This document shows positions 1,064 to 42,069 of a stretch of 42,174 nucleotides of DNA, piece after piece. The DNA is from a virus: IMG/VR virus record IMGVR_UViG_3300043410_000181, positions 1 to 42,174 of that record. One strand, 5' to 3'. Under the pieces are notes generated by a model that was not told where the DNA came from, made no database searches, and saw only the letters and a program-made list of their open reading frames with translations. How positions within the stretch are numbered: the stretch's first letter is position 1; each line of letters opens with the position of its first letter. A program made the translations under genes and the position numbers.

Positions 1064-4000
1064 ATGGCTGATGTCGAATCCAATATTAATATTAATATTG
1101 ATGCGTCTCAAGCACTAGCAAATTTAAGGGCTCTTCAACGAGAGATATCAGCCTTTCATACACAAATGGCAAAGGGTGGTGCTGCAGCACAGGCAGCATC
1201 AAATAACCTTTCTCAGAATCTAGTCAACCAAATCAATGCTACTGGAAAGTTTTCTGCCCAGTTTACTAATGTTGCTTCAACAACAGAAGCATTTACAACA
1301 GCACTAGAAAAGAATCAGTTTACTCTTAGAGAGTATTTTAGATATACAGGTGCAGCAACAAAAACTTTTGGCAAAATGTTTGCACAAGAGTTCGACACAA
1401 TTAGCACAGTTGCTCGTGAACGTGTAAAAGATCTTCAATCACAATATATTAAGCTTGGAAAAGATGCCAATGGTGCTATTCAGGCAATCAAGGTACGCCC
1501 ACTCGCTCTTGATATGGATGATCTTGGAACTAAAACACAAATTGCTGCACAAAAAACACAGATTTTAAATCAGCTACTTCAGCAAGGTTCTACAAACCTA
1601 CTTAACTTTGGTAAGAATACTCAATGGGCTGGTCGTCAGCTAATGGTTGGTTTTACCATTCCATTGATGATGTTTGGATCACAAGCAGCTAAGGCATTCC
1701 AGGATGTTGAGGAGCAAATGATTCGCTTTAAGAGAGTCTATGGAGACCTACAAACAACTTCTAAAGATGCTCAGGCTGCAGCAGATGATGTAAAGAGACT
1801 TGCCTCAGAGTATACAAAGTATGGCATTGCTGTTGCAGATACTATTAAGCTTGCTGCAGATGCAGCTGCAACTGGTAAACAGGGTGCAGAACTTATGGCA
1901 CAGGTTGCTTCTGCAACAAAGCTTGCAGTTCTTGGCGGTATTGATCAGCAACAGGCACTACAGACAACTATCTCATTGACCAATGCTTTTGGTATTGCTG
2001 CAGATGATCTCGCTAAAAAGACTAACTTCCTAAATGCTGTTGAAAACCAGACTGTTACATCTATCGATGATCTAACAACAGCTATCCCTAAAGCTGCACC
2101 AGTTGTCAAGCAACTTGGTGGTAACGTAGAGGACCTTACATTCTTCCTTACAGCTATGCGTGAGGGTGGTGTAAATGCTGCTGAAGGTGCTAACGCACTT
2201 AAGTCTGGTCTTGCATCTATGATTAATCCAACTAAGGCTGCATCAGATATGCTTGCTGGGTTTGGTATTAATATTAGAGGTATTGTAGACTCTAATGCTG
2301 GTGATCTAAAGGGAACAGTTATTGGAGTAGCTAAAGCACTTGATACACTGGATCCACTAAACCGTGCACGTGCTATTGAAACTATGTTTGGAAAGTTCCA
2401 GTTTGCACGTATGTCTGCCATGTTCCAAAACATTACAGATCAAGGTTCTCAGGCAAATAAAGTTCTTCAATTAACAACAGCTACCTCAGAAGAATTAGCA
2501 ATCCTGTCTGAACGAGAAATGAAGACAATGGAAAACTCACCATTGTACAAATTTAAAAAAGCAATGGAAGATCTTAAGGCAACACTTGTACCAATTGGTG
2601 AGCAATTCCTAAAAGCAATTACTCCAGTGATTAAATTTATTGGCGGAATTCTTGAAAAGTTTAATGATCTAAGTGATGGTTCAAAGAAGTTTGTTGTAAC
2701 GCTTACAACTATTCTTGCTGGTATTGGTCCAGTAGCACTTATGACTTTTGGTCTTCTTGCTAACGGCGTAGCAAACATTATCAAGTTATTTACATCAGTC
2801 AAGAGAGTATTTAACGGTGCTGGTGGAGCATCACAAGATCTTGGGTCACAAACAAGATTTATGACACAAGCTCAAATTGAAGCTGCAGCTGCTGCATCAT
2901 CTCTTGATCAGGCTCACTCAGCATTAAAGCAAACATTTACATCTGAAGCTAATGCTGTAGATATGCTAACTGCTGCATATCAAAGAGCAATCACAGCACA
3001 GCGTGGATTCTCAGGTGGCCCAGTTCCAAATACAAGACCAACTAAGCCAAAGAATTTTGCAGATGGTGGAGTTGTTGTAACTGGTCCTGGCGGTCCAAAA
3101 GATGATGCAATTCCAGCAAACCTATCAAACGGCGAGGTTGTACTTTCTGTAGATACAGTAAATAAAAACCCTGGTGTTGTTGCTGCACTTCTACAGGGAA
3201 GAAAGATTAATGTTCCAGGATTCTCAAATGGATCTGGTGCAGAAAAATTTGTAAGTAGTGGAATGGGATATAGCCAAGGACACTTCTCTGGATTTAGTGA
3301 GCACACTGGACAGCAACTTCTTGATATGGCAAAGAATGATCAAGACCTAGCAGCTATTAGAAGTAGACTACAAACACAAGCTGAATTGCTATCAAAAATA
3401 ACTGGCAATGAAGTTAAGTATGAAGATATGCTTACACGCAAATTCCAGACATACGACAACAGAGTTGTTGGTCAGTCTATGGCTCTTAACACAATGCTTG
3501 GACAATCATCTGGCAAGGGTGGACAAGCAACAGCAGACTTTGTACAAAGAGAATATGCAGGACAGCGTGAGCAAGCACACGGTATGGCTGCTAACTTTAT
3601 GAAGGCAAATGGTGTAACTCCAGAAAAAATTCAGGTAGCAATGACAGACCTAGCTGATGAGGTAGATGCAGGAATTGCAGACTTTATTGCTAAAACAGGT
3701 AAGTCAGCCAAAGATGTTAAGATGTCTGGACAAGATCTTGATAAGGTTATGCAGACTGCATATGAAAAGGTAGCATCACGCAATAAAGATTTAGCACAAG
3801 CATATGCAGGAATGTCTGAAGTAGCAGGTATTGCTTCTGTAGAAAAAACTAGCACAGGATCAAATAACAGACTAGCTCTTTCAAGATTTAGAACATGGTA
3901 CAAGAGAAGTTCTACTAAAGATGAAAACTATACAGCTGGTATGGAGTATTCAGATCAGCCAGCATACCTTGCTCAAGTAGCAAAGCGTAAGTTTAGAGGC

Positions 4001-7000
4001 GACAACCTAACACTTGCCAAGAAGGTAAGAGATGCAGACCCTGAAGGATTTAGAGATCTACTTCAACAGGGCGATGCAAAGAAGCGTCTAGCAATGCTTA
4101 AGGCAATTGCAAAGAAGCACGGTATTGCAGTTATTGATGAAATGGGCAAGGGTGCACAAGAAGGTCTTGATGAAGGACTACAAAATGCATCTCCATCAAA
4201 GAGAGCAAGGAAGTCTGGTAACTATGGTGCTGAAGGTTATATTGAAGGTCTAGAATCAAAGCCAGATGCTGCAACTCAGGCTGGTAAAAGAAATGCTAAA
4301 AGAGCTAATGATGGTATAGAATCAGAAGTTGCAGCTGCCAGAGCAGCTGGTAAAAAAGTTGGAACAGCAGCAGCACAAGGTGTTTCTGAGAGTACTGGTT
4401 CTACTGGTCCAAGAGATATGTCTGGAACAGGTCTTCAAGGCATGTTTAATAGAAGCAAGCTTGGTGATAAGTTTAATAATAGTGCATTTGGTCAAAGACT
4501 TAATGCTAGAGCAGCATTCTCTGGTGGTGAGCCAACAGCTATGGCTCAAGGTCTTCGTAAAGCTGGTGGAGTTGGTATGGGCGTTACATCAGCTCTTGCT
4601 ATGGCATCTGCAATTCCTGGCCCAATTGGACAAACTGCACAAAGTATTCTACCAGTAGCAAGTGCTATTACAACAGTTCTACCAATGTTATCATCACCAA
4701 TTGGAGTAGCAGTGCTTGCTATTGGTGCTCTTGCAGGTGCAGTATACATGCAGAAGAAAGCATTTGACGATGCACAAAATGCAACATTAGATTTTGCCGA
4801 AAAGGTTGGCGTTTCTACTAAGGCAGTCGAATCATTTAGTAAGTTCGCTGGTACAGTATCTGCTTCTGAGGTAATGCGTAAGCGAAGAGAAGGAAACATT
4901 AATCCTTTCCAGATTCAAACAGGAAAAACAACCTGGGGACAATCGTATGTTCAAAGTGAAGATGGCAAAAAGCAAGTTCAAAATGTTAAGGCAGACATTA
5001 AGAAAAATGGTGCAGGAGCTCAGTCAAATATTGTTGCTCAAACAGCTGCAGCTGTGATGGATGGCTCTATGTCTGCAGCACAAGCAAGAAGCTATATTGC
5101 TGCAGTAGGACAACAACTTGGAGATACCTCATTCTCTATTAAGGCAAATGCTCAGCTAATTAGTCTTATTGGTGTTAATGGAGAAAATATTCTAAAAGAT
5201 GGTATGGCCATTAGAACTAAGCTTATTGAAGATCAAAGAGCTAAGACGACAGCATCAATGAAAGATCTGCAAAAGGCTTCAGCATTTAATGGCGGAGATC
5301 TTGGAAATACCGCACTTGGTGTAGGTGGCGGTGCAGCAGCAGGTGCAGTAGCAGGTGCAATTGCTGGTAGTGCAATTCCTATTATTGGAACAGCAGTTGG
5401 AGCCATTGGTGGTGCAATCATTGGTGGTGTTGCAGGAGGAATTTTCGCTCAACAAGATAGACAAAAGAGAATTGGTAATGCGTCTGCTGCTACTGTAGCA
5501 ATGCAAAAACAAGAGCTTGAAGTAGAACAGCAAATGCTTGACTCACTCGATATGGAGTATGAGAAGAAGTATGCTAACCTAATGGCTGCTGGAAAACAAG
5601 CAGAAGCTGAAAAGCTTACAAATGATTATCTTGCAAATAGACAGGCACTTCTAGATCAGCAAGCAACAACAGTGCAGAATATGGCTACTAGCTTCAAGTC
5701 AGCAGACTCAGAAGTTCAGGGTGCCCTAATGTCTGGTGTTGATAAGGCAGTTACTAAAAAATACAAGGGAACAATGTATGAAGACATGGTTGGCCTTGCT
5801 AATGATAAGCTTGCATCATCTGGTCTTAGCCAAGAGAAAGTCTTTGTTCTAAAAACTGAAATGGCAGCAGGAAATATTGATCCTATGAAGATGATCAATA
5901 TTATGAATACTTTTGCTGGAGACCAAAAAACTATTGATAAAGTTCTTAGCATTATTACAAAATTTGGTGGTGCAACTGGTGCACAAACAGACCAAGTAAT
6001 GGCACTATTTGATGGTAATAAGGCAATTCAAAAAAGTATTGTTACAAAGGTATCTGCAGCAAAAACATCTAAAGATGCACAAAGCATATTGAATATGTGG
6101 GCTGCAATTGGATCATCTACAGCACGTAGCAAAGACTTGAAGGTTGTGGCTGATTTTATTGATAAGAATCCTGCTGTACAAAAGAAACTTTCTGGAATTA
6201 TTGATACTGTTAATAAGCATCAGGGTAAGTTTAAGATGGACTTCATTACAAACTTCCTGGGTGATAATAAGGGTGCAATGGATGCTCTTAAGCAAGACAT
6301 GGACTATTTCAACAAACTGTCTGATAAAGAGCAAAAGGTATACCTAACAGAACTTGCAGTAATCTCTACTAAGGTTATTTCTGCTAAAGATCCTCTAGTT
6401 CAGACCTGGCTAAAGGGTGCAGGTTCTTCATATGCTAATTCAACAGACGGTGAGCAACTTGCTGCATATCTTGCATATGATGCTCAGACTGTTACTAAAG
6501 CTGCTATTGATACAACCAGCAAAAAGCCAGGACCTGGAGCAGGCGGTGGTGGCGGTGGTCCACAGGCATCTGCTATCGATGGTCTTACAAAAGAACTTCG
6601 TGATGTACAAAAGAACCAAATTGTTCCAAAGGTTGGTTGGGGTGCCAATATGAGCATTCTTCGTAACCTTTTCTCTGGTAAAGATTCAAAGGGCAAGGAT
6701 AAGAAAGAACTAACACTCTTCAGTGGTCTACAGAACGACATGAGAGCTAAGGGTGCTGGCGAAGATCTTATTCAGCTTATTGCTGGTATGGACCCTGCTG
6801 AATTTGAAAAACACAAAAAAGAACTCTTTAACTTCGATAAGAAGGGCAATATTAAGTCATTTAAGTCTGATCTAGTTACTATTGGAGAAGCACTACGATC
6901 TATTCAGCTTGGTAAGTTTGTTGATCAACAGCAAGCTGTACTAAAGCAAACTGGAGAACAGGGCTCTGCACTAGAAAAGCTTAAAAAGGCTGGTGTTGAT

Positions 7001-8770
7001 ACTGCTACTGCATATTCAATGGTTGCTGACCAGGCAACTGCATCTGCTATTGCTAACTCTAAGTTAAGTCCTGCTAAACTTCAGGAGATGGCTGCTGCTG
7101 CTAAAAAGGCTGCAGACGCAGTGCTTGAGTTTAATACTCGTACAAGTCTAGCAAACTCTGTTCAAGAATTCAATGATAAAAAGGCACTACTTCTTAAATT
7201 AGGAGCACAGGCAAAGAACTTTACAGACGAACAGATGACGGAAATTTTAAATAACCAAGATCTTCAAAAGATGATTCTACATCCTGAGTTCAATCAAGAA
7301 GAATTTAATCAAAAGCTTAAGCAGGTTGCAGAACAGGCTAATGTTGAGATTGCACTTAAGTCACTAACCATCGATGGCATGAAGGACCTATTCCAAACAG
7401 GATTTAATAATGCTATGAATGAAATTAATGCTAAGGAAACAAAAATCAATATCCAGTTTGAGAATAAGACTGCTGGAGATAATAAGATTATTAAAGATTC
7501 TGAGAATCAAATTGCTGGAATCAACTATCAGGTTGGACAATGGCAGGCACAGCTCAAGGGCATTGAGGATCAAGAGAAAACAATCAATGAGTCTTATGAC
7601 AAGCGTAAGGAAGCTTTAAGCACTATCGCTCAAATGAACGATAGAATTTCTAATCAGCAAAAGGGTCAGCTAGGACTTGCACAAGCACTCGCTTCAGGTG
7701 ATATGGGGGCTGCTGCTCGTGCTGCACAGGATATGCGTTCACAGGCAGCTGGATATGCAATTCAAGACCAGCAGAGTGCACTTGAAGCATCTAGAAAAGA
7801 TGCTCTTGGTGCTGTAAGAAGCGATAAGGGTTATTCAAGACTTGAAATTGAAACTCAGGTGAAGATACTTAATGATCAAATTTTTAAGATTCAGCAAGAC
7901 TCACTTATTCCTGCACAAGAAAGAGTAAGACTAGCAACTGTTGAAAGAGATAGACAACTTGAGTTAGTCACATCTCTTGGATTAAATAAGAGTCAGTGGA
8001 ATGAAATTAAAAATAATATTGACCTTGCAGAAATTGGAACTGGGAAATACCAGCAGTCAATCTCTATTGCTAAGGACCTTGTTGGAGATATGCTTAAGCA
8101 CTGGAATGATATGCCTAAGACATTCGAAACTCTTTACACAATTCGTCAGAAATATATTACTGAGGGGACTCCTGCTGCTGGTGCACCAACAGTAACAGAT
8201 ACATCTGGAGTTACTGGAGTTGGAAAAGCTGATAAGATTGATAATGGTGGAATCCCATCTGGAGTACCAAGTTCAGCACTAGTGTCTGGATATGGAGCAG
8301 TTACTACTGGCCCAACAGCTGCAGAAAAGCAAGCATGGCTATTTGCAGCTACAACTGGTAGAGCATCCTCACTGACACCAGCACAAAGAGCAGCTATTGG
8401 GTTTGCAAGCGGTGGTTCTGTTCCTGGAGTTGGAAATTATGACAATACCCCAGCAGTTCTAACTCCTGGTGAATTTGTTATTAATAGAAATTCTGTTGGT
8501 AAGTATGGCCGTGGTTTATTAAATTCAATTAACTCTGGAACATATAGAGAACCTTCAATGCCAGCAATGACAGCAGCAGATATCCCTACAGCAGATATTT
8601 CAAGAGGAACCTCTATAGTTCAAACATCAAACCACAGTTCAGTGTATAATTATACTCTAACAGTAAATGCAAAAACTGATGCTAATGCTAATGATATTGC
8701 TCAAACTGTAATGGCTAAGCTTCGTCAAGTTGGAAGCAATGACCAAAGAATTAGAGGGGTTAGATACTAA
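1064..8770 (+). CDS. Phage tail tape measure protein
   Basis: This 2,568-residue protein sets tail length and probably exits with the DNA at infection. Residues ~190-405 have the TP901-type tape measure core (hydrophobic GFTIPLMMFG, then Ala-rich helices with AADAAATGKQGAE and MREGGVNAAEGANAL). Hydrophobic segments lie near residues 545-575, 1166-1232 and 1406-1462 (Gly/Ala-rich, glycine-zipper-like), fitting membrane insertion. A GG.V...G..D..PA.L..GE.V motif occurs twice, diverged, near residues 665-720 and 2447-2490. An SPSK.....G..G.EGYIEGL motif lies near 1042, and a short PG/poly-Gly hinge near 1820. By the usual rule of ~0.15 nm per residue the tail would be near 385 nm. The start is the ATG at 1064 with GAGGTG upstream; the nearer ATG at 1060 opens a three-codon frame only. 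Confidence 0.95.
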   Translation: MADVESNININIDASQALANLRALQREISAFHTQMAKGGAAAQAASNNLSQNLVNQINATGKFSAQFTNVASTTEAFTTALEKNQFTLREYFRYTGAATKTFGKMFAQEFDTISTVARERVKDLQSQYIKLGKDANGAIQAIKVRPLALDMDDLGTKTQIAAQKTQILNQLLQQGSTNLLNFGKNTQWAGRQLMVGFTIPLMMFGSQAAKAFQDVEEQMIRFKRVYGDLQTTSKDAQAAADDVKRLASEYTKYGIAVADTIKLAADAAATGKQGAELMAQVASATKLAVLGGIDQQQALQTTISLTNAFGIAADDLAKKTNFLNAVENQTVTSIDDLTTAIPKAAPVVKQLGGNVEDLTFFLTAMREGGVNAAEGANALKSGLASMINPTKAASDMLAGFGINIRGIVDSNAGDLKGTVIGVAKALDTLDPLNRARAIETMFGKFQFARMSAMFQNITDQGSQANKVLQLTTATSEELAILSEREMKTMENSPLYKFKKAMEDLKATLVPIGEQFLKAITPVIKFIGGILEKFNDLSDGSKKFVVTLTTILAGIGPVALMTFGLLANGVANIIKLFTSVKRVFNGAGGASQDLGSQTRFMTQAQIEAAAAASSLDQAHSALKQTFTSEANAVDMLTAAYQRAITAQRGFSGGPVPNTRPTKPKNFADGGVVVTGPGGPKDDAIPANLSNGEVVLSVDTVNKNPGVVAALLQGRKINVPGFSNGSGAEKFVSSGMGYSQGHFSGFSEHTGQQLLDMAKNDQDLAAIRSRLQTQAELLSKITGNEVKYEDMLTRKFQTYDNRVVGQSMALNTMLGQSSGKGGQATADFVQREYAGQREQAHGMAANFMKANGVTPEKIQVAMTDLADEVDAGIADFIAKTGKSAKDVKMSGQDLDKVMQTAYEKVASRNKDLAQAYAGMSEVAGIASVEKTSTGSNNRLALSRFRTWYKRSSTKDENYTAGMEYSDQPAYLAQVAKRKFRGDNLTLAKKVRDADPEGFRDLLQQGDAKKRLAMLKAIAKKHGIAVIDEMGKGAQEGLDEGLQNASPSKRARKSGNYGAEGYIEGLESKPDAATQAGKRNAKRANDGIESEVAAARAAGKKVGTAAAQGVSESTGSTGPRDMSGTGLQGMFNRSKLGDKFNNSAFGQRLNARAAFSGGEPTAMAQGLRKAGGVGMGVTSALAMASAIPGPIGQTAQSILPVASAITTVLPMLSSPIGVAVLAIGALAGAVYMQKKAFDDAQNATLDFAEKVGVSTKAVESFSKFAGTVSASEVMRKRREGNINPFQIQTGKTTWGQSYVQSEDGKKQVQNVKADIKKNGAGAQSNIVAQTAAAVMDGSMSAAQARSYIAAVGQQLGDTSFSIKANAQLISLIGVNGENILKDGMAIRTKLIEDQRAKTTASMKDLQKASAFNGGDLGNTALGVGGGAAAGAVAGAIAGSAIPIIGTAVGAIGGAIIGGVAGGIFAQQDRQKRIGNASAATVAMQKQELEVEQQMLDSLDMEYEKKYANLMAAGKQAEAEKLTNDYLANRQALLDQQATTVQNMATSFKSADSEVQGALMSGVDKAVTKKYKGTMYEDMVGLANDKLASSGLSQEKVFVLKTEMAAGNIDPMKMINIMNTFAGDQKTIDKVLSIITKFGGATGAQTDQVMALFDGNKAIQKSIVTKVSAAKTSKDAQSILNMWAAIGSSTARSKDLKVVADFIDKNPAVQKKLSGIIDTVNKHQGKFKMDFITNFLGDNKGAMDALKQDMDYFNKLSDKEQKVYLTELAVISTKVISAKDPLVQTWLKGAGSSYANSTDGEQLAAYLAYDAQTVTKAAIDTTSKKPGPGAGGGGGGPQASAIDGLTKELRDVQKNQIVPKVGWGANMSILRNLFSGKDSKGKDKKELTLFSGLQNDMRAKGAGEDLIQLIAGMDPAEFEKHKKELFNFDKKGNIKSFKSDLVTIGEALRSIQLGKFVDQQQAVLKQTGEQGSALEKLKKAGVDTATAYSMVADQATASAIANSKLSPAKLQEMAAAAKKAADAVLEFNTRTSLANSVQEFNDKKALLLKLGAQAKNFTDEQMTEILNNQDLQKMILHPEFNQEEFNQKLKQVAEQANVEIALKSLTIDGMKDLFQTGFNNAMNEINAKETKINIQFENKTAGDNKIIKDSENQIAGINYQVGQWQAQLKGIEDQEKTINESYDKRKEALSTIAQMNDRISNQQKGQLGLAQALASGDMGAAARAAQDMRSQAAGYAIQDQQSALEASRKDALGAVRSDKGYSRLEIETQVKILNDQIFKIQQDSLIPAQERVRLATVERDRQLELVTSLGLNKSQWNEIKNNIDLAEIGTGKYQQSISIAKDLVGDMLKHWNDMPKTFETLYTIRQKYITEGTPAAGAPTVTDTSGVTGVGKADKIDNGGIPSGVPSSALVSGYGAVTTGPTAAEKQAWLFAATTGRASSLTPAQRAAIGFASGGSVPGVGNYDNTPAVLTPGEFVINRNSVGKYGRGLLNSINSGTYREPSMPAMTAADIPTADISRGTSIVQTSNHSSVYNYTLTVNAKTDANANDIAQTVMAKLRQVGSNDQRIRGVRY

Positions 8771-24610: not shown

Positions 24611-24837
24611 TGATTAAAGTATATACAAATGAAAACTGCGTACAGTGTGACCAGACAAAGAAGTTCTTGGATAGCGAAGGAATTGCATATGAGGTTAAGC
24701 CATTTGCAGAAAATCCAGATGATCTAAAGCGTTTTGTTGATCTTGGATTCAGAGCAGCACCAATCGTAGAAACAGAAAATGACGTTTGGTCTGGCTTCAA
24801 GATTGATAAGCTAAAGTCTTTGAAAGCAGTAAACTAA
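24610..24837 (+). CDS. nrdH: NrdH-type glutaredoxin-like protein
   Basis: This 75-residue redoxin has the active-site pair C10-V-Q-C13 near the N-terminus and the NrdH features FRAAPIVET (cis-Pro loop) and WSGFKIDKLK at the C-terminus. NrdH carries electrons from thioredoxin reductase to ribonucleotide reductase. The only RNR in the window is the B12-dependent enzyme at 35460, whose C-terminal Cys pair needs such a reductant. Tandem 1-nt overlaps with MazG and the RecA-like gene place it in a nucleotide/recombination operon. Confidence 0.9.
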   Translation: MIKVYTNENCVQCDQTKKFLDSEGIAYEVKPFAENPDDLKRFVDLGFRAAPIVETENDVWSGFKIDKLKSLKAVN

Positions 24838-25850
24838 TGACAGTTACAGTAGAAGACGTATTAGCACAACTAAATCCAAAACTAAGAAAAGGAATTATGA
24901 TTGGTGACTCTGTTCCAGAGACAGAGTATCAGCCAACTCCTAGCTTTGGTCTAAATAGAGCACTCAATGGTGGATTACCATATGGTCGTCAGGTACTTAT
25001 CTGGGGATCAAAGTCATCTGCTAAATCATCTGTATGCCTTCAGACAATTGCCTTAGCACAAAAAGAGGGAAAAGTCTGTGCATGGATTGATGCTGAAATG
25101 TCATATGATAAGTCATGGGCAGAAAAGCTTGGGGTAGATACTTCAAAGCTTATTGTGTCTCAAGCACGTACAATCAACGACATGGTAGATGTAGGAACAC
25201 AGCTTATGAATGCTGGGGTAGATTTGATTGTTGTTGACTCAATCACATCATTGCTTCCTGCAATCTATTTTGAAAAGGATTCAGATGAACTTAAGCAACT
25301 AGAGAATACGAAGCAAATTGGTGCAGAAGCACGTGACTTTAGCAATGCCGTTAAGATGCTTAATTATGCTAATAATAAGGTAAAGCCTACACTGCTTATT
25401 TTTATCAGCCAGTCTCGCAATAATATTAGTGCTATGTATACTAGCCAGCAGCCTACAGGTGGAACATCTGTTAAGTTCTACTCGTCTACCATCATTAAGC
25501 TATTCTCATCTGAATCAGATAACCAAGCTATTAAGGGTAAGATTCAGGTTGGAGATAAGCTTCTTGAAGAGAAAATTGGACGTAAGGTACGTTGGGACTT
25601 GCAGTTCTCTAAGACATCTCCAGCATTCCAAGGTGGGGAATATGACTTCTATTTCCGTGGCCCAGAGGTTGGAGTAGATAGCATTGGTGACCTAGTAGAT
25701 ACCGCTGAATCAATTGGCATTATCAATAGAACTGGTGCATGGTATCAGTTAGAAGACGGTACAAAGATTCAGGGTAGAGAAGCATTTATAGCAAGAGTTA
25801 AAGAAGATCTAGACCTACAAGATTCAATTAGGGCAAAGCTAAATGGCTAA
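24837..25850 (+). CDS. recA: RecA/UvsX-like recombinase
   Basis: This 337-residue protein has a RecA core. The Walker A-like GSKSSAKS is at residues 57-64, where the standard sequence is GPESSGKT, so Gly before the catalytic Lys is Ala. The Walker B motif is VDLIVVDSIT (~128-136). A DNA-binding loop with ISQSRNNISAMY and QQPTGGTSVKFYSS follows the L2 pattern. It is close in length to RecA but lacks most of the C-terminal acidic domain. It would form filaments on single-stranded DNA for recombination-dependent replication and repair, working with the nearby exonuclease and RuvC genes. It overlaps the redoxin stop by 1 nt. Confidence 0.92.
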   Translation: MTVTVEDVLAQLNPKLRKGIMIGDSVPETEYQPTPSFGLNRALNGGLPYGRQVLIWGSKSSAKSSVCLQTIALAQKEGKVCAWIDAEMSYDKSWAEKLGVDTSKLIVSQARTINDMVDVGTQLMNAGVDLIVVDSITSLLPAIYFEKDSDELKQLENTKQIGAEARDFSNAVKMLNYANNKVKPTLLIFISQSRNNISAMYTSQQPTGGTSVKFYSSTIIKLFSSESDNQAIKGKIQVGDKLLEEKIGRKVRWDLQFSKTSPAFQGGEYDFYFRGPEVGVDSIGDLVDTAESIGIINRTGAWYQLEDGTKIQGREAFIARVKEDLDLQDSIRAKLNG

Positions 25851-26022
25851 GTACAGTATTTATTCTGGTGAATTTCTTTGTCATACATGTAAAGAAGTAG
25901 TAAAAAGTCTAAGATTATACCCAGAAACCTATGAGGTAAGTTGGATGTGCTCACAAAAACACTTAACAAGTGTTATAATATATAGAAAGAAAACAAAAAA
26001 GGACTATGAGCGAGAAGAATGA
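25843..26022 (+). CDS. Small zinc-ribbon protein, 59 residues
   Basis: This short gene starts 8 nt inside the recA-like gene end and runs 17 nt into the next gene. The protein has C13-x2-C16 (CHTCKE) and C36-x3-H40 (MCSQKH), a likely zinc knuckle, and a very basic C-terminus (YRKKTKKDYEREE). The aromatic/polar composition and tight overlap on both sides support a real gene. It probably binds nucleic acid or a partner of the recombination genes. Function is unknown; I know it only as a type of small protein common in phage recombination regions. Confidence 0.7.
   Translation: MAKYSIYSGEFLCHTCKEVVKSLRLYPETYEVSWMCSQKHLTSVIIYRKKTKKDYEREE
25971..25979 (+). promoter_or_regulatory. Extended -10 promoter candidate (TGTTATAAT)
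   Basis: TGTTATAAT lies within the zinc-ribbon gene, 26 nt before the next start codon (26006). There is no good -35. It could boost the nuclease-candidate and oxygenase genes that follow. Confidence 0.35.
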
Positions 26023-26296
26023 AAGCAAGCGTATTGGTGCCAAGCAGCACAAAAACTCTGGTAGAAATACCCACAAGGGCGATGCCACGTGGAAAAACTT
26101 TACAGTGGACTTTAAAGAAGTCGGAAAATCTTTCACCATTAACAAAGAGGTTTGGGCTAAAGCAAGCACTGATGCTGTTAGGAATGGCAACGATCCTGCT
26201 ATTTTCATCATTCTTGGTAACGAGGGTATTAGAACACGCTTGGCTGTTATTGAGTTGTCCCTGCTAGAACAAATAATGGAGGAGCACAATGAGTAA
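26006..26296 (+). CDS. PD-(D/E)XK nuclease candidate (resolvase-like)
   Basis: This 96-residue protein has a basic N-terminus (KRIGAKQHKNSGR), then KGDAT with Asp26, a strand NFTVDFKE with Asp35 and Lys37, and a helix WAKASTDAVRNG followed by the strand PAIFIILG. The D...(D/E)xK order and the following helix-strand pattern match small PD-(D/E)XK nucleases found near phage recombination genes. It might cleave Holliday junctions or nicked DNA. The first and third catalytic positions are visible but the family call is mine by eye. It has a 17-nt overlap upstream and 8-nt overlap downstream. Confidence 0.5.
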   Translation: MSEKNESKRIGAKQHKNSGRNTHKGDATWKNFTVDFKEVGKSFTINKEVWAKASTDAVRNGNDPAIFIILGNEGIRTRLAVIELSLLEQIMEEHNE

Positions 26297-26912
26297 TCAG
26301 ATTGTTTCAAATTTTTTGACAGCAGAAGAGATTAGGCAAATCTCAGATATTGTATACCATGAACTTGAAACACGAGAGCGTGTAAGGGACAACGACTATG
26401 AAGCATACCATTCTAATGCTGCAACATATCAGCCATGGTTTGGAAGACTTCAGCTACATGATCTAGCACATTTAATCCCACAAGAAATTATGAATAAAGC
26501 TCTTAATTTTTCTAAAGAGCATTGGATTTATCCAGAATATCCCATGGAGTTTACTGGAGTCACATTCATGAGATGGTCAAATGAATTCAAGGAAGATAGA
26601 GGAAATCCGTTTCTTGGGGTACACCTTGATAGTAACAATAACCTAGGAATATTGCTAGATTATCAGCTTAAGTCAAATACAGATTGGCCATTAGCTATTG
26701 AAAAAGATGTGTACGAAATGAAGGATAATGACATGGTATATTTTTATCCAACAGATCAGTACCACTGGAGAGTAAATAAAAACTGGTTAGATGGAGAATT
26801 TGTCGATGTTTTGTTTTTTGAATATGGTGCTGTTGGCAAGCCAAGAACAGAACAAGATGAAGATATTAAAAAAGAACTTGCAGATTATAGGGATTCTTTA
26901 GGAACATGGTAA
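26289..26912 (+). CDS. 2OG-Fe(II) oxygenase-fold protein, tandem copy 1
   Basis: This 207-residue protein has a cupin/double-stranded beta-helix iron site: H112-x-D114 in GVHLDSNN, a distal H159 in YHWRV, and a conserved block W..L...VYEMKDNDM....H.R...W..GEFVDVLFFEY. It is a clear paralog of the two following proteins; the distance from Asp to the distal His is 44 residues. 2-oxoglutarate oxygenases hydroxylate proteins, small molecules or nucleic acid bases. The usual 2OG-binding Arg/Lys a dozen residues after the distal His is not obvious; Arg161 just after it is shared by all three copies. Substrate unknown. It starts 8 nt inside the nuclease-candidate gene. Confidence 0.7.
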   Translation: MSNQIVSNFLTAEEIRQISDIVYHELETRERVRDNDYEAYHSNAATYQPWFGRLQLHDLAHLIPQEIMNKALNFSKEHWIYPEYPMEFTGVTFMRWSNEFKEDRGNPFLGVHLDSNNNLGILLDYQLKSNTDWPLAIEKDVYEMKDNDMVYFYPTDQYHWRVNKNWLDGEFVDVLFFEYGAVGKPRTEQDEDIKKELADYRDSLGTW

Positions 26913-27460
26913 TTAAACCTCCAACTTTTGAGCAGGGACTGATACCTGCAGAGGAATGCATAAAATTTGCATCAATCATAAATGACTTTAAGGCAATGAT
27001 GCCAGATAAGCCAGTTTGGGATGAAACTGATGATTATTCTGATATGCCACAAACACTTGGATTTGGTAAGATACTTAACTCAAGAATGGGAAAAATTTAT
27101 TTTCAGATACCAATAGTAAAAATCCCATCAAACATCTTAGATCTAGTAACTAAGGCAGCTAACGATTTTGAGCCAGGGGTAGAAATACATTCAGTCACGT
27201 ATACAGAATATTCGTCAGAATATGGTACCCCATCGTTGAGCTATCATACTGACAGGACTGATGACCTACTACTTGTTGATCTGCAGATTAGCTCTAATAC
27301 GATATGGCCACTAGGGGCCAATGGAGAGCTATATGACATGAATGATGGAGATGCCCTAGTCATAAGATCTGGTAGCACTGTTCATGGTAGACCAGAGAAG
27401 ATATTTAATCCTGGAGAACATGTCGCAATGATATTCTTTGATTTTTTAAGACAGCAGTAG
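26906..27460 (+). CDS. 2OG-Fe(II) oxygenase-fold protein, tandem copy 2
   Basis: This 184-residue paralog of its neighbours has H114-x-D116 in SYHTDRTDD and distal H160 in VHGRP, 43 residues apart from the Asp. It shares the block W.L.....LYDMNDGDA....H.R......GEHVAMIFFDF. Arg162 takes the place of the shared HWR arginine. It overlaps copy 1 by 7 nt. Iron ligands are intact, so activity is likely, but the substrate cannot be read from the sequence. The N-terminal ~95 residues differ strongly from the other copies and may define the target. Confidence 0.68.
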   Translation: MVIKPPTFEQGLIPAEECIKFASIINDFKAMMPDKPVWDETDDYSDMPQTLGFGKILNSRMGKIYFQIPIVKIPSNILDLVTKAANDFEPGVEIHSVTYTEYSSEYGTPSLSYHTDRTDDLLLVDLQISSNTIWPLGANGELYDMNDGDALVIRSGSTVHGRPEKIFNPGEHVAMIFFDFLRQQ

Positions 27461-27480
27461 CATAAAAAACGATTTTGTAC

Positions 27481-27486
27481 TATAAT
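27481..27486 (+). promoter_or_regulatory. -10 element candidate before oxygenase copy 3
   Basis: TATAAT in the 42-nt gap between copies 2 and 3, followed by AAGGAG 11 nt before the ATG. No -35 and no TGn extension are seen, so this is weak. Confidence 0.3.
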
Positions 27487-27502
27487 ATATACAAGGAGAA
27501 AC

Positions 27503-28333
27503 ATGAATAATATAAAAATGAATCCAATGACGGGTATGCCATATAATCCAGCACCAATGCATGAGTACCTTACTGGATTTGACAAATATAACAGAGAGCT
27601 GCCGATTTATATTGAAAAGCCATTCAATGAAGAACAAATTGCAACACTTAGAGAAGTTATTGAAAAGAATAGAAGACTTATGGATGGGGATGACAAATAT
27701 ACCCCAATGCCTGGCAGTCATGAAGAGTACTATGGTCCAACAAGATATCATCCAAAAAAGATTACTCATATGTCAAGGCTTCTTATTGAGTTTGATTGCC
27801 CACCTATCGTTGAGCAGGCTATGGATGAATATTGTAAGCCACTACATAAAGATCCAATTCGACTAACACACTACAACTACATTGATTATGATATGAAGTA
27901 TGGTAATGGTGTTGCTGCACCAGCATTGCCACCACATCTAGATGCTGATGAAAACCTAGTCACATTTAACTATATGATTGGCGGTAACGTAGATGATTGG
28001 ACTCTATGGGTAGATGATAAGCCATATGATCTTAAGCTAGGAGATGCTATTATCTTTAGTGCTGTAAATCAAGTACACTGGAGAGATAAGCGTAAGTGGA
28101 AGCCAGGAGAATTTGTAGAAATTGTAAGTTTTGATTATTGTCCAGTAACAAACTATCGTTGGTTGGGGCTAGATAATCCTATTGATGGAAGAATGAATCC
28201 AGAAGGCAGAGAAGAGTATCAGAGAGTACTTTCAGAACATCCTGCCATGAAGTCTGGTTGGAAAATCTATACAGATAGAGGAGCAGAACTTGGGTTTGGC
28301 CCAGGGGAAATTGCAGGATTTGCTAATGAGTAA
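27503..28333 (+). CDS. 2OG-Fe(II) oxygenase-fold protein, tandem copy 3
   Basis: This 276-residue paralog is the longest. H145-x-D147 lies in PPHLDADEN, distal H192 in VHWRDKRK, 44 residues after the Asp. The shared block W.LWVDDKPYDLKLGDA....H.R..W.PGEFVEIVSFDY is well kept. Residues 70-135 add an N-terminal extension with SHEEYYGPTRYHP and LTHYNYIDYD, and residues 215-276 a C-terminal tail. Copy 3 follows a 42-nt gap and a strong AAGGAG site, so it may be expressed apart from copies 1 and 2. The fold call is fairly firm; the reaction is unknown. Confidence 0.72.
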   Translation: MNNIKMNPMTGMPYNPAPMHEYLTGFDKYNRELPIYIEKPFNEEQIATLREVIEKNRRLMDGDDKYTPMPGSHEEYYGPTRYHPKKITHMSRLLIEFDCPPIVEQAMDEYCKPLHKDPIRLTHYNYIDYDMKYGNGVAAPALPPHLDADENLVTFNYMIGGNVDDWTLWVDDKPYDLKLGDAIIFSAVNQVHWRDKRKWKPGEFVEIVSFDYCPVTNYRWLGLDNPIDGRMNPEGREEYQRVLSEHPAMKSGWKIYTDRGAELGFGPGEIAGFANE

Positions 28334-28628
28334 TGAAACAACTTTAGATATGATTAATGGTCTTGCAGAAATTGCAGACTACATGCAGGATGAAGAACTT
28401 ACAACAGCTCTGACTTTTATTGCAAAACTAATAGTAAAACCAGACATTCCTTTGAATGTCGCAACAATTGAAATTGTACGCCTCCAGGCAATTGCTGCTA
28501 AAATGTCTTTTAAGGCAACTTGGATGGCTAACGTAGATAAGGGAGATAGAGCGAAGAAGAATTTGTACTTTACTGCTGCAGAATCAATCAATAACTTGGT
28601 TGCTGCCTTGAAGTACATAACTCGCTAA
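28326..28628 (+). CDS. Small helical protein, unknown function
   Basis: This is a 100-residue, all-helical protein with LVAALKYITR at its end, IEIVRLQAIAAKMSFKATW in the middle and an acidic N-terminus. An in-frame ATG at 28290 would add 12 residues, but the ATG at 28326 overlaps the preceding stop by only 8 nt, as do most neighbours, so I choose it. It lies 8 nt before the Cas4-like exonuclease and may be its partner. No nuclease or zinc motif is present. Confidence 0.6.
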   Translation: MSNETTLDMINGLAEIADYMQDEELTTALTFIAKLIVKPDIPLNVATIEIVRLQAIAAKMSFKATWMANVDKGDRAKKNLYFTAAESINNLVAALKYITR

Positions 28629-28636
28629 GTGGTATT

Positions 28637-29470
28637 ATGGCTAAGAACCTATTAAGTCAGGTAATGTTGAAAAAGATTGATAACAATCCAGCAGCATTCC
28701 TAGATACAAAAGAATTTATTGCAAAGCTTGAGAGTGGATACACTATCAGCCGTGTAGCTAAATTCCAAAAAAAGAAAACATTTGCACCAAGTACAATTGC
28801 ATACTCTCATGGAGAATGCCCTAGATACTGGTATCTTGCATTTGATGGCGGAATCTTTGAAGATTATGCTGATGCATTTGGTGTAGCTAATATGACAAAT
28901 GGAACTTTGTCACATGGAAGAATTCAGGATGCTATGTTGGCATCGGGAGTCGCAAAGGAATTTGTTGACGATAATGGTAACAAGACTACTGAATTTAAAA
29001 TTATAAGTAATGATCCTCCTATCTTTGGTTATGGAGACGCAATGCTTGAGTGGATGGGTGACGACATTGTTGGAGAAATTAAAACCTCTAGTAGTGAAGC
29101 ATTCGAATACCGCAAAGCTGCAGGTAAGCCAAAGAATGGTCACCTAATTCAGCTATTGATCTATATGAAGATCCTTGGCAAGAGCAAGGGTGTAATTATT
29201 TATGAAAATAAAAACAATCATGAGCTATTGGTATTACCAGTTGAGGTAACACCAGGTAGCTATTATGTATCGTGGGTAAACAATGCATTTGATTGGATGC
29301 GAGCAGTTCGTAAGGCTTGGACAGATAGGACAATGCCTGAAAAGAACTATCGCTCTAATTCAAAAATCTGTAAGACATGTCCCCTAAAGGCTGTCTGTTC
29401 AGAAGCTGGCAAGGGAGATATAAAGATCAAATCTCTGGAGCCACTTGATGAAACATTGTCAGTATTGTGA
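28637..29470 (+). CDS. Cas4/RecB-like PD-(D/E)XK exonuclease with Fe-S cysteines
   Basis: This 277-residue nuclease has D134 in GYGDAMLEW, E147-x-K149 in VGEIKTSS, and H169...Q172 in HLIQLLIYMKI, the catalytic set of RecB-family PD-(D/E)XK enzymes. Four Cys fit the Cas4/AddB iron-sulfur site: C61 (GECPRYW) and C245-x2-C248-x5-C254 (CKTCPLKAVC). It would resect DNA ends to single strands for the RecA-like protein; a spacer-acquisition role is unlikely as no other cas gene or array is present. It overlaps the next gene by 23 nt. Confidence 0.85.
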   Translation: MAKNLLSQVMLKKIDNNPAAFLDTKEFIAKLESGYTISRVAKFQKKKTFAPSTIAYSHGECPRYWYLAFDGGIFEDYADAFGVANMTNGTLSHGRIQDAMLASGVAKEFVDDNGNKTTEFKIISNDPPIFGYGDAMLEWMGDDIVGEIKTSSSEAFEYRKAAGKPKNGHLIQLLIYMKILGKSKGVIIYENKNNHELLVLPVEVTPGSYYVSWVNNAFDWMRAVRKAWTDRTMPEKNYRSNSKICKTCPLKAVCSEAGKGDIKIKSLEPLDETLSVL

Positions 29471-29771
29471 TACTTACTTCACACCAAACACATCCTACCA
29501 AATCTACTGTTCTAGCGGATGTCGTGAACTAGCTACTAAAGAAAAGATAGCACAACGATATGAGCAGACTAGAAGAGAGAGAAGGAGAAGCAAAGTTAGA
29601 CAGTGTAAGGTCTGTGGTTCAGAACTGTCAATGTATAACGATGATGTAACGTGTGATGGATGCATAATTGTTCCAAAAGAATTTAGTAAAATATTAAGAC
29701 AAATAAAGGGAATCGCAAATGGTAAACTTGTCCTTGATGACGAATCAACCACACAAGATCTGGGCGATTGA
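29448..29771 (+). CDS. Small double zinc-finger protein
   Basis: This 107-residue protein has two four-Cys zinc sites: C4-x2-C7...C21-x3-C25 (YCSSGCRE) and C53-x2-C56...C69-x2-C72. Between them is a basic helix (QTRRERRRSKVRQ). The first site resembles the zinc ribbons found with phage nucleases. A TTG start at 29445 is also possible; the ATG at 29448 is preferred. Overlapping genes on both sides (23 nt upstream and 53 nt downstream) place it in the recombination operon, probably as a nucleic-acid-binding factor. Confidence 0.65.
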   Translation: MKHCQYCDTYFTPNTSYQIYCSSGCRELATKEKIAQRYEQTRRERRRSKVRQCKVCGSELSMYNDDVTCDGCIIVPKEFSKILRQIKGIANGKLVLDDESTTQDLGD

Positions 29772-30297
29772 CGCAAGTACCAACAGTCTTGCCTTCAGTA
29801 TATTTGAGGGCAAGGCTTTGGTTGCTTTTGGCAAGATTAATTTTAGTGGCAAGACAACCTATGAGAAGGTTATAGATGCTTGTAAAAAAACTAAAGCGTT
29901 CATGAATGAGTATGGATATCCAGAAGCTATTGTAATTGAACATACTGTATTTATGAATAGTCCAAAGACAGCAGCTGATCTGGCATTGGTACAGGGAGCA
30001 CTTTTAGGTGCAGCAGGCATCACTGGTACAAATGAGATCAGGTCTGTGGCACCAATTACATGGCAAAACTATATTGGTAATAAAAAGCTAACTAAGGAAG
30101 AAAAGTTTGAGCTTAAGAAAAAGTTTCCAGATAAAAGTGATTCATGGCTTAAAGCACATGAGCGAAATCTCAGAAAAGAAAAAACTATTAATTATATTAA
30201 TATTCAATATGATAGGCTGGTCAGTGATAATGACGTTGCTGATGCTATTGGTATTGGGCATTATGCGATAAATAACTGGGGGAAGTTGACAAACTAA
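29719..30297 (+). CDS. ruvC: RuvC-like Holliday junction resolvase
   Basis: This 192-residue protein has an RNase H fold with the RuvC acidic residues D18 (WAIDASTNS), E74 (AIVIEHTVF) and D172/D175 (NDVADAIGIG). It would cut Holliday junctions during recombination or clear branched DNA before packaging. The ATG at 29719 follows AAAGGG at a good distance; the later in-frame ATG at 29737 has no ribosome site. That choice gives a 53-nt overlap with the zinc-finger gene in another frame. Confidence 0.85.
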   Translation: MVNLSLMTNQPHKIWAIDASTNSLAFSIFEGKALVAFGKINFSGKTTYEKVIDACKKTKAFMNEYGYPEAIVIEHTVFMNSPKTAADLALVQGALLGAAGITGTNEIRSVAPITWQNYIGNKKLTKEEKFELKKKFPDKSDSWLKAHERNLRKEKTINYINIQYDRLVSDNDVADAIGIGHYAINNWGKLTN

Positions 30298-30957: not shown

Positions 30958-31254
30958 TTGGCAAGAAAAAAGCAAATAGCAATAGCAACAGAGACTAAGT
31001 TCTTGAGAGAACACACAATGCTCTGTGACGGATTTGAAATAGTCCGTGGTGATATAATTAAGGTAAGTGGACAGTATGGTCTCAAATTCAAATTTGATGC
31101 TGTAGTGACCAATACTGAAACTGGTTCAAAATGGGTAGACTGCTTTGAACTATTCAGAGGGCAGTCGCAATGCTTTAGATCTTTTGATATGGGTCAGGTA
31201 AAGCGAATCCCACAAAGAGGCAAGAGAGGTAGAAAGCGTGTCATCCAAGACTAA
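30958..31254 (+). CDS. Small basic protein, unknown function
   Basis: This 98-residue, strongly basic protein (KRIPQRGKRGRKR near the end) begins with TTG, two bases after the preceding stop, with CAGGAG as ribosome site. Strands such as FEIVRGDIIKVSG, FKFDAVVTNTETGSKWVDCFE suggest a small beta barrel, perhaps SH3-like. It resembles small phage proteins of unknown function. Nucleic acid binding is a reasonable guess from charge. It shares 17 nt with the next gene. Confidence 0.6.
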   Translation: MARKKQIAIATETKFLREHTMLCDGFEIVRGDIIKVSGQYGLKFKFDAVVTNTETGSKWVDCFELFRGQSQCFRSFDMGQVKRIPQRGKRGRKRVIQD

Positions 31255-31978
31255 GTACTTTGACAATCCAACTAATGTTTGGGTTATCGATGACTTTTTT
31301 ACAGAAGAATTGGCTAATGAGTTGGCTGAAAACTTTTATGAATATGATGATGAAAGATGGTTGACACGCAATCACTCAGAGTTTGAAGAAAAGCTTTTGT
31401 CAACACATTGGGATTGGTATCCTGCTGTGTTGTACAAAACTTTCTTTGATCTTGCTTCACAAGATTTTGTGAATATCCTTGAGGATATGACTGGAATAGA
31501 TAATCTAATTGCAGATTATGGATTGCATGCAGGTGGTATGCATCTGCACTCTAGCAATGCTAGGCTGAATCTACATCAAGATGCAAAGCTTCACCCAAAG
31601 CTTGGCTTAGTAAGAAAACTTAATATTATAGTTTATTTAAATAAAGATTGGCAAGAGTCCTGGGGTGGAGAACTAGAGTTCTGGAATAGCATAAGCGGAG
31701 AGCCAGGAGAAAAGGTATTCTCAGTATGGCCAAAGTTTAATCGTGCAGTTATTTTTCAGACAGATAATGACTTCTGGCATGGTCTTCCAGAAATGATTGC
31801 TGCTCCAAATGGACAGAATCGTCAAAGTATTGCTATGTTCTATTATGTAGAAAACTCTGATAATGCTATAATGGATACAAGATCACGTTTTGCACTGACT
31901 CAAGAACAAAAGTCAAACCCAGAACTTGTAAAGAAAAATGAAGAAAGAATGAGAACGGCTTTTAAATATGGAAGATAA
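31238..31978 (+). CDS. Prolyl-4-hydroxylase-like 2OG-Fe(II) oxygenase
   Basis: This 246-residue protein shows the complete 2OG-FeII_Oxy_3 pattern: H113-x-D115 in NLHQDAKLHP, LNIIVYLNKDW..SWGGELEFW, distal H181 in FWHGLPE, and the cosubstrate Arg195 in NRQSIAMFYY. It is therefore the most typical of the four oxygenase-fold proteins here, related to prolyl hydroxylases. Phage homologs are known but their targets are mostly unknown. The start is GTG at 31238 after GAGAGG. It is coupled to the terminase small subunit by an 11-nt overlap, hinting at modification of virion proteins or DNA late in infection. Confidence 0.85.
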   Translation: MSSKTKYFDNPTNVWVIDDFFTEELANELAENFYEYDDERWLTRNHSEFEEKLLSTHWDWYPAVLYKTFFDLASQDFVNILEDMTGIDNLIADYGLHAGGMHLHSSNARLNLHQDAKLHPKLGLVRKLNIIVYLNKDWQESWGGELEFWNSISGEPGEKVFSVWPKFNRAVIFQTDNDFWHGLPEMIAAPNGQNRQSIAMFYYVENSDNAIMDTRSRFALTQEQKSNPELVKKNEERMRTAFKYGR

Positions 31979-40536: not shown

Positions 40537-41061
40537 ATGACCTGCATTGTTGCAGCACGACAAAACGATAAGATTTATATGGCAGGTGACAGAGGTGCAT
40601 CTGAAACCAATTTAATTATGTCTCTTACTAGTCCAAAAGTTTGGAAACATGGAGAATATGTTTTTGGTTACTGTGGATCAATGGATGGCGATAGAATGAA
40701 ATATAATTTCAAGCCACCAGCACCAAAGGGTGATGATCTAGATAAGTTTATGTATACTGATTTTCTTATTTCACTACGTGTATTCTATGAAAATTGGTGG
40801 GTAGATGTTTCTAATGATTCTGATTTTGGCTTATTAATTGGAATTCGTGGAAAAATTTATGAACATAATGCCGTAGATATGTCGTTGAATCAATATATGC
40901 ATGATTATATTGCTATGGGTTCAGGATCTGAATATGCATATGGTTCCATGTACTCTACTGAAGGACTAAAGGATACACGTAAGCGTGTAATGAAAGCAGT
41001 AGGTGCTGCAATAAAATTTTCAACTTCTTGCCAAGGTCCAGTTGACATTGTCACCTCTTAG
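40537..41061 (+). CDS. Proteasome beta/HslV-like Ntn-hydrolase
   Basis: This 174-residue protein has the length of HslV. After Met removal Thr2 becomes residue 1 (TCIVAARQNDKIYMAGDRGA), Asp18 becomes D17 and Lys34 becomes K33, the exact T1/D17/K33 set of proteasome-type peptidases. A GSG at residues 128-130 (MGSGSEYAYGSM) matches the GSG near Ser129 of 20S beta subunits. The Ntn fold strands FGYCGSMDG and FGLLIGIRGKIYE are in place. No HslU, Mpa/ARC-like ATPase or alpha subunit is in the window, so it would be a stand-alone hydrolase. Substrate unknown. It has its own promoter. Confidence 0.85.
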   Translation: MTCIVAARQNDKIYMAGDRGASETNLIMSLTSPKVWKHGEYVFGYCGSMDGDRMKYNFKPPAPKGDDLDKFMYTDFLISLRVFYENWWVDVSNDSDFGLLIGIRGKIYEHNAVDMSLNQYMHDYIAMGSGSEYAYGSMYSTEGLKDTRKRVMKAVGAAIKFSTSCQGPVDIVTS

Positions 41062-41268: not shown

Positions 41269-42069
41269 ATGAAAAAAACAATCTATTCAGTAATCGCAGT
41301 AGCACTATGTTTTAGTGCAGTGTCTACACCTGCTCATGCAGACTCAAAATCTTTAGTAATTATCGATTCTTATTTTGATTCACGAGTGATTAGTGGCAAT
41401 GTATCATGCATTACTCTAGATAATCAAGCATGTACAGACATCGTGAAGACTATTCCAGCTAGCCTATCTGACAATGTTAATCATGGTGATGCCATGGTTG
41501 AAGTTGCTAAAAAGCAAAATCCTGGAGTATCAATAATTGCTATTCGTGCAGGAATTCCAAACACTAAATCAGTAAGCGATGTAAATGCAGGCAACTTTAT
41601 TGAGGCATTAAAGTGGGTATCTGCTCATGCTTCATCTGTAAGTGCTGTATCTATTTCTCGTTATTTTAATGGAATGAGTCCATGCACTCCATCAAGTATT
41701 AATACAGCACCATATGGCGGTGTCCAAAAAGCAGATGCCATGATCCGAAATCAAATTGCAACTCTTGCATCACAAGGCATTCCAGTATTTGCATCAACTG
41801 GAAACACAAAGGGAACCACCATTAGCTACCCAGCATGTATTTTAGATACAAAGTCAGTAAGTGTTGGTGCTTTGAATAAGGCTGGAGTTGTTGTTAGTTC
41901 ATATGCTGCAGATGTAAATACAGATTATTTTGCATCATCATCAGTATATTCTTATAAGTCACCGATTCTTGGAATCATTCCAAATACAACTTCTGCTGGA
42001 ACCGCTGCAGTTGCTGCAAAATTTGTTTCAAATACACTTGACAACAAGTTCGTAAACGTGCTACAATAG
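41269..42069 (+). CDS. Secreted subtilisin-like serine protease
   Basis: This 266-residue protein has a signal peptide (MKKTIYSVIAVALCFSAVST, cut after AHA at 24). The catalytic set of S8 proteases is visible in order: D33 (VIIDSYFD), H72 (NHGDAMVEVA, standard NHGT..A), the oxyanion N179 (FASTGNTKG) and S242 (TTSAGTAAVAA, standard GTSMAAP.VAG). It lacks a clear propeptide and is smaller than typical subtilases (~275 mature). Four or more Cys could form disulfides. It follows the leaderless gene by 12 nt. A secreted or surface protease from a phage may trim host surface proteins or help release. The Ser region is diverged, so activity is likely but not certain. Confidence 0.85.
   Translation: MKKTIYSVIAVALCFSAVSTPAHADSKSLVIIDSYFDSRVISGNVSCITLDNQACTDIVKTIPASLSDNVNHGDAMVEVAKKQNPGVSIIAIRAGIPNTKSVSDVNAGNFIEALKWVSAHASSVSAVSISRYFNGMSPCTPSSINTAPYGGVQKADAMIRNQIATLASQGIPVFASTGNTKGTTISYPACILDTKSVSVGALNKAGVVVSSYAADVNTDYFASSSVYSYKSPILGIIPNTTSAGTAAVAAKFVSNTLDNKFVNVLQ
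42038..42067 (+). promoter_or_regulatory. Promoter facing the terminal noncoding region
   Basis: TTGACA (42038) and TACAAT (42062) are 18 nt apart, with TGC as extended -10. It overlaps the end of the protease gene; start point near 42074. Confidence 0.6.

Follow-up and report, generated by a model that had tools for sequence, protein, structure and literature searches.

Organization of the locus

The window, by which we mean the whole stretch of 42,174 nucleotides that was analysed (IMG/VR record IMGVR_UViG_3300043410_000181), carries on its plus strand three consecutive genes for predicted oxygenases of the 2-oxoglutarate (2OG)-Fe(II) type with an HxD-HxR signature. ORF1 (26289–26912) and ORF2 (26906–27460) specify proteins of 207 and 184 amino acids of what we call the accessory type; ORF3 (27503–28333), of the core type, specifies a 276 amino acid protein with N- and C-terminal extensions. 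The array is bounded on the left by a PHROG 2002 gene, labelled Holliday junction resolvase (26006–26296; E-value=7.8e-22), and on the right by a PHROG 9818 gene (28326–28628; E-value=3.5e-24 for a scan begun in frame at 28311). Upstream lies a gene for a RecA/UvsX-like recombinase (24837–25850), the nearest homologs of which, at about 50% identity, are in Streptomyces phages of the Stanwilliamsviridae type, and downstream are genes for a Cas4-like nuclease (28637–29470; PHROG 1706, E-value=7.1e-42), which served as an independent anchor, and a RuvC-like resolvase (29719–30297; PHROG 159, E-value=1.5e-15), all on the plus strand. The recombination-operon setting described in an earlier note on this DNA is correct. 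ORF1 overlaps the preceding gene by 8 nucleotides and ORF2 by 7, and the ATG of the PHROG 9818 gene overlaps the stop codon of ORF3, an arrangement as in a single operon. Scans for promoters and terminators gave results at chance level.

A separate, canonical 2OG-Fe(II) oxygenase (PF13640, E-value=7.6e-16) is encoded at 31238–31978 on the same strand. Counted from the distal His (H), it has Leu at position H+2 and Arg at H+14, and it shows no detectable sequence relation to ORF1–3 (shuffle z about 1 or less). Its best PHROG match is 274, labelled "DNA endonuclease V", a label which looks doubtful since several cyanophage 2OG oxygenases match the same group. Towards the end of the window are a small protein that some relatives share and that begins like a proteasome subunit (40537–41061; PF00227, E-value=1.1e-4, slightly below the cut-off), and a secreted-looking protein, subtilase-like by eye, with no Pfam match (41269–42069).

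Homology and conserved motifs of ORF1–3

The putative iron ligands are H112, D114 and H159 in ORF1, H114, D116 and H160 in ORF2, and H145, D147 and H192 in ORF3, the Asp and the distal His being 44, 43 and 44 residues apart, respectively. In each protein an Arg follows two residues after the distal His (R161 in HWR, R162 in HGR and R194 in HWR). A W.L...Y(D/E)(M/L) block is present as WPLAIEKDVYEM in ORF1, WPLGANGELYDM in ORF2 and WTLWVDDKPYDL in ORF3, and a GE(F/H)V block reads GEFV..FFEY, GEHV..FFDF and GEFV..SFDY. The Trp of the family signature is W134 in ORF2 and W166 in ORF3. The local alignment of each pair scored above all 500 of 500 shuffles (z = 24.1, 21.5 and 18.5), so that the description of three homologous proteins sharing these motifs stands. 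They had also been credited with unrelated N-termini, which is contradicted by BLASTP, where the alignment of ORF1 with ORF3 spans residues 13–182 of the former and 44–215 of the latter. Strand-helix-strand elements precede the core in both of the proteins that were modelled (ORF2 and ORF3), and among the three the terminal differences are limited to extra N- and C-terminal extensions.

Predicted fold and enzyme class

Neither Pfam nor NCBIfam gave a significant family for ORF1–3, Pfam returning only weak Cupin_2 matches, and a sequence search of the PDB yielded nothing convincing. ORF2 and ORF3 were modelled with ColabFold (AF2) on the family alignment (pLDDT 94.0 and 94.9, pTM 0.90 and 0.91, respectively) and the models compared with known structures using VIA-align. 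Both adopt a double-stranded beta-helix, and the family possesses the HxD/E...H iron triad. The best match of both is SnoN, the 2OG epimerase of nogalamycin synthesis (ORF2: Z=16.1, 160 residues aligned, rmsd 2.8; ORF3: Z=12.8, 174 residues, rmsd 3.5), followed for ORF3 by 6n1f (Z=12.7) and the prolyl hydroxylases P4H and PHD2 (Z=11–12), and for ORF2 by AlkB (Z=14.6) and P4H (Z=14.5). The lysine halogenase/hydroxylase group of HalA, HalB and BesD was also matched (Z=11–12.8). Of the structures with which comparison had been suggested, AlkB and P4H are thus among the matches; those of TET/JBP are absent from the 50 matches listed, which says nothing for or against a likeness to them. The oxygenase fold that had been proposed is borne out by the models, and we regard it as very probable that ORF1–3 are Fe(II)/2OG-dependent oxygenases. 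A shared predicted fold gives the class of an enzyme, not its substrate.

SnoN shares only 9–14% identity with the window proteins and acts on small molecules in antibiotic synthesis. P4H, PHD2 and viral collagen prolyl hydroxylase have the same fold (Z=11–14.6) and HxD...H triad, whereas the window family lacks their strand-VIII Arg or Lys and has the Arg at H+2 instead. AlkB has arginines downstream of the distal His; the window family, although ORF2 is similar to AlkB in fold, has no conserved Arg at H+8 to H+15 and is acidic, and the AlkB-type profile (2OG-FeII_Oxy_2) matched none of the window proteins or of 17 family members. The Tet_JBP profile (PF12851) likewise gave no match at E≤1 to either set.

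A family with a relocated arginine

Relatives gathered from IMG/VR amounted to 463 ORFs (263 unique) at 155 loci, which were reduced to 87 non-redundant viral contigs. Of the unique proteins, 258 have a length of 150 amino acids or more, and the HxD..HxR signature is kept in every one of them, so the putative iron ligands, the loss of which in relatives would have spoken against the assignment, are retained. An alignment of 92 sequences, in which column identity averages 20%, has five invariant columns, namely those of H145, D147, W166, H192 and R194 of ORF3. Arg at H+2 is therefore found in 100% of the aligned members; it was not directly selected for, because the patterns used for retrieval addressed a single gene in each contig and included HxD or HW stretches but in no case the Arg, and profiles served to find the other genes of the arrays. 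A profile search does favour conserved motifs somewhat. The same alignment has no conserved Lys or Arg at H+8 to H+15, where P4H-type enzymes have theirs at about H+10. The observation that the basic residue expected to bind 2OG is not where prolyl hydroxylases have it was thus accurate. Eight canonical phage 2OG oxygenases, one of them that at 31238–31978, have an invariant strand-VIII Arg and never an Arg at H+2. At the level of sequence, the placement of the Arg differs firmly between the family and these canonical phage enzymes. That R(H+2) stands in for the strand-VIII anchor of 2OG is an inference, read from sequence and secondary structure.

Nearly all members are acidic, with median net charges of -12 and -10 and a pI of about 5.2; about 1% of the accessory members have a pI above 7. 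No match to ORF3 was found by tblastn in 50,697 phage records, nor was a relative found in two genome scans covering 84,980 species of bacteria and archaea, in which only fairly close relatives are detectable; a host origin was accordingly not found. The HxD...W...HxR oxygenases appear to be a branch found here only in phages.

Outside these contigs the family is linked to PHROG 2954 (T4-like GC 615), which comprises proteins of cyanomyoviruses and pelagiphages (for example SSM1_060/061, S-PM2p237, and AGE60402 of HTVC008M). This group is matched by 15 of 17 family members, and profile-profile comparison with the window family gave an E-value of 8.9e-14 and a probability of 98%. In a joint alignment LxxHxD, W, H and the R at H+2 are invariant, at about 16–22% identity to the window family, and phage S-SM1 even has tandem copies (SSM1_060/061). 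In genomic position the two are unlike: the PHROG 2954 genes of such phages lie with canonical 2OG oxygenases beside neck or tail-fibre genes, several of them within 2OG-oxygenase clusters, whereas the window family is in a recombination operon. The group carries the name "Hyp. with ferrochetalase domain" in PMC3037559; as "ferrochelatase" it has been described as an auxiliary gene with seasonal enrichment (PMC11561400), and in pelagiphages it was interpreted as the haem/iron partner of the 2OG oxygenases (PMC9599517). The Pfam ferrochelatase profile (PF00762) matched neither four PHROG 2954 proteins nor the window family at E≤1. The label is very probably wrong, and by sequence PHROG 2954 is itself an oxygenase-like family in the same clade as the window family.

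Variable occupancy of the operon slot

In nearly all contigs the gene order is dnaE-(MazG)-recA-PHROG2002-[oxygenases]-PHROG9818-Cas4-zinc finger-RuvC-terminase, the left and right boundary genes being recognized in 75 and 84 of the 87 contigs, respectively; a few oxygenase members are placed just outside these boundaries. Streptomyces phage Wofford (Stanwilliamsviridae) has the order dnaE-MazG-recA-PHROG2002-PHROG9818 position-Cas4-RuvC-terminase but no oxygenase, the slot being empty in the Streptomyces relatives. A scan anchored on Cas4, with contigs ranked by likeness to Wofford, produced 79 new contigs, of which 76 lack the family and three have it in the same slot. PHROG2002 and PHROG9818 often overlap or stand close together in the contigs without the family. 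Elsewhere the slot is occupied by other genes. In about 12 relatives (among L208–L222 and L227) it contains a gene for an RNase H-like 3'-5' exonuclease of 202–203 amino acids; an SSB gene is also seen there, and L202 has a pair of canonical 2OG oxygenases (3819–5665; contig G025, 107 kb). The latter contig has no HxR member and 15 PF13640 hits. Presence of the array, mapped onto a Cas4 tree, changes about six times. The pattern of presence and absence and the varied occupants indicate that the oxygenases are an optional module in a permissive slot. The WhiB profile scored over its cut-off in 20 of 25 long contigs, and since whiB has been used as a pointer to actinobacterial hosts (PMC6802176), such hosts are indicated. 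The carriers of the array are Stanwilliamsviridae-like actinophages.

Composition and age of the arrays

Among the 87 contigs the array region contains one member in 5, two in 34, three in 24, four in 15 and five in 9, some of these counts being reduced where contig ends cut the arrays. The core type is present in 81 contigs, nearly always as a single copy, together with zero to four accessory members. Within one contig the accessory members are about 24% identical, while the best match of each in another contig is about 78% identical, which indicates that the set is old and has been inherited or exchanged as a set. A recent triplication was rejected for the same reason, since orthologues from different contigs resemble each other far more than paralogs from a single contig do. 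Of the earlier proposal of triplication followed by substrate divergence, the paralogy holds and a local, recent event does not; the paralogs are ancient and common to many phages. The family genes are under purifying selection, with dN/dS among close pairs of 0.08 for the core and 0.07 for the accessory type (maximum 0.27), and the candidate explanation of decayed ORFs was rejected on the value of about 0.08. Chains of 400–442 amino acids that resemble fused pairs of oxygenases also occur, among them four of 400–441 amino acids in the array region (L027, 8779–9990; L123, 7320–8645; L148, 4866–6134; L155, 2244–3446).

Dispersed copies and glycosyltransferases

When dispersed copies are included a contig has up to eight family members, and these copies lie near genes for glycosyltransferases and nucleotide-sugar enzymes. 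Between 16 array-bearing and nine other long contigs, all comparisons being of incomplete contigs and with kinship ignored, canonical PF13640 oxygenases were found in 16 versus 2 (one-sided Fisher p=7e-5), PF11397 GlcNAc-transferases in 8 versus 0 (p=0.012) and collagen repeats in 13 versus 1 (p=0.001). On the minus strand of L264 (6206–7716) a PHROG 2954-like HxR oxygenase gene (7156–7716) overlaps that for a PF11397 GlcNAc-transferase by 4 nucleotides, a few kb from a gene for a collagen-repeat/CBM protein. A canonical oxygenase gene overlaps a PF11397-like gene in L261 and L265, and canonical oxygenases, recognized by profile or motif, abut such genes in L260, L262, L271 and L272. What appear as glycan islands in L260, L261, L262, L270 and L271 have up to eight PF11397 hits per contig, with nucleotide-sugar enzymes, a C-methyltransferase and several 2OG oxygenases.

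We take PF11397 to be the family of the Skp1 hydroxyproline GlcNAc-transferase (Gnt1). Other members may act on other acceptors. In Dictyostelium PhyA hydroxylates a proline of Skp1. Hydroxylated Skp1 is the substrate of Gnt1 (PMC3515798). Some relatives resemble this system in having an oxygenase gene adjacent to one of the PF11397 type; they differ in that these are phage genes, and that the array in the window has no adjoining PF11397 transferase. For the dispersed copies the arrangement supports a reading of hydroxylation followed by glycosylation; the support that it lends to such a reading of the array is indirect.

Possible functions

The explanation that we tentatively prefer, while crediting it as a whole with somewhat less than an even chance, is as follows. 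ORF1–3 would be Fe(II)/2OG dioxygenases that bind Fe(II) through the HxD motif and the distal His. The 2OG carboxylate would be anchored by the Arg at H+2, which is on the strand of the distal His and would take the place of the missing strand-VIII Arg or Lys. During infection the paralogs would each hydroxylate a different target, most likely amino acid side chains in proteins of the phage or its host, or sugars bound to protein or cell. Phage glycosyltransferases might then cap some of the hydroxylated targets, much as Skp1 of Dictyostelium receives GlcNAc once its proline has been hydroxylated. The assignment of a protein or sugar substrate to the array itself is the weakest step, because the array is located apart from the glycosyltransferases. 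It also counts against this explanation that ORF2 resembles AlkB and P4H equally closely in fold.

Action on small molecules is a possible, if less probable, alternative, in which metabolites, nucleotide-sugars, amino acids or 2OG itself would be modified by auxiliary metabolic enzymes retuning the host metabolism. The closest structure, SnoN, is a small-molecule enzyme, HalA, HalB and BesD are also among the matches, a role in 2OG status has been proposed for cyanophage 2OG oxygenases (PMC3037559), and the copies in the glycan islands could act on sugars. Nevertheless, two to five diverged members per slot and up to eight per contig fit many macromolecular targets better, and no biosynthetic pathway adjoins the array.

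The earlier note had named DNA, or a protein bound to it, as a possible target, for example through base hydroxylation that shields phage DNA from restriction. On this view the enzymes would hydroxylate bases (or repair alkylated ones) during replication. The position of the array between recA and the Cas4-like and RuvC nucleases, the close similarity in fold between ORF2 and AlkB, and the filling of the same slot in relatives by an exonuclease-like gene or SSB are in its favour. We nonetheless consider it unlikely: a C5-DNA-methylase was found in 0 of 16 array-bearing long contigs (these contigs being incomplete, and the window a 42 kb fragment), the proteins are uniformly acidic, and as many as eight divergent copies per contig exceed the need of one base modification. 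Moreover, many relatives have the operon without oxygenases, the cyanophage and pelagiphage relatives adjoin neck or tail-fibre genes, and the dispersed copies are located among glycosyltransferases. Base hydroxylation is in consequence unsupported.

That fold and metal site are kept for another cosubstrate or chemistry, as in cupin-like non-heme iron enzymes or iron/ligand sensors, might explain why strand VIII has no conserved basic residue in the alignment of 92 members and why Pfam matches are limited to weak ones to Cupin_2, but is improbable given that the whole-domain structural matches are 2OG enzymes, that an invariant Arg near an iron ligand suits a carboxylate cosubstrate, and that the family co-occurs with canonical 2OG oxygenases.

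A wider reading can be framed, which we think rather doubtful in its full extent. A phage-specific HxD...W...HxR branch with a relocated 2OG-binding Arg, in which the marine "ferrochelatase" genes are included, would have radiated into multi-enzyme sets that hydroxylate many proteins and, together with PF11397 transferases, would give phages of aquatic bacteria a system in which glycosylation follows hydroxylation. Multi-enzyme sets do exist, with up to eight HxR members and up to six canonical oxygenases per contig. The analysis shows that phages of aquatic actinobacteria are unusually rich in oxygenases, a large share of which have the Arg at a place where the canonical phage enzymes compared do not have it, and the sequence evidence corrects the published "ferrochelatase" annotation of PHROG 2954 in marine phages. 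The neighbouring glycosyltransferases make the targets of phage 2OG oxygenases a testable question.
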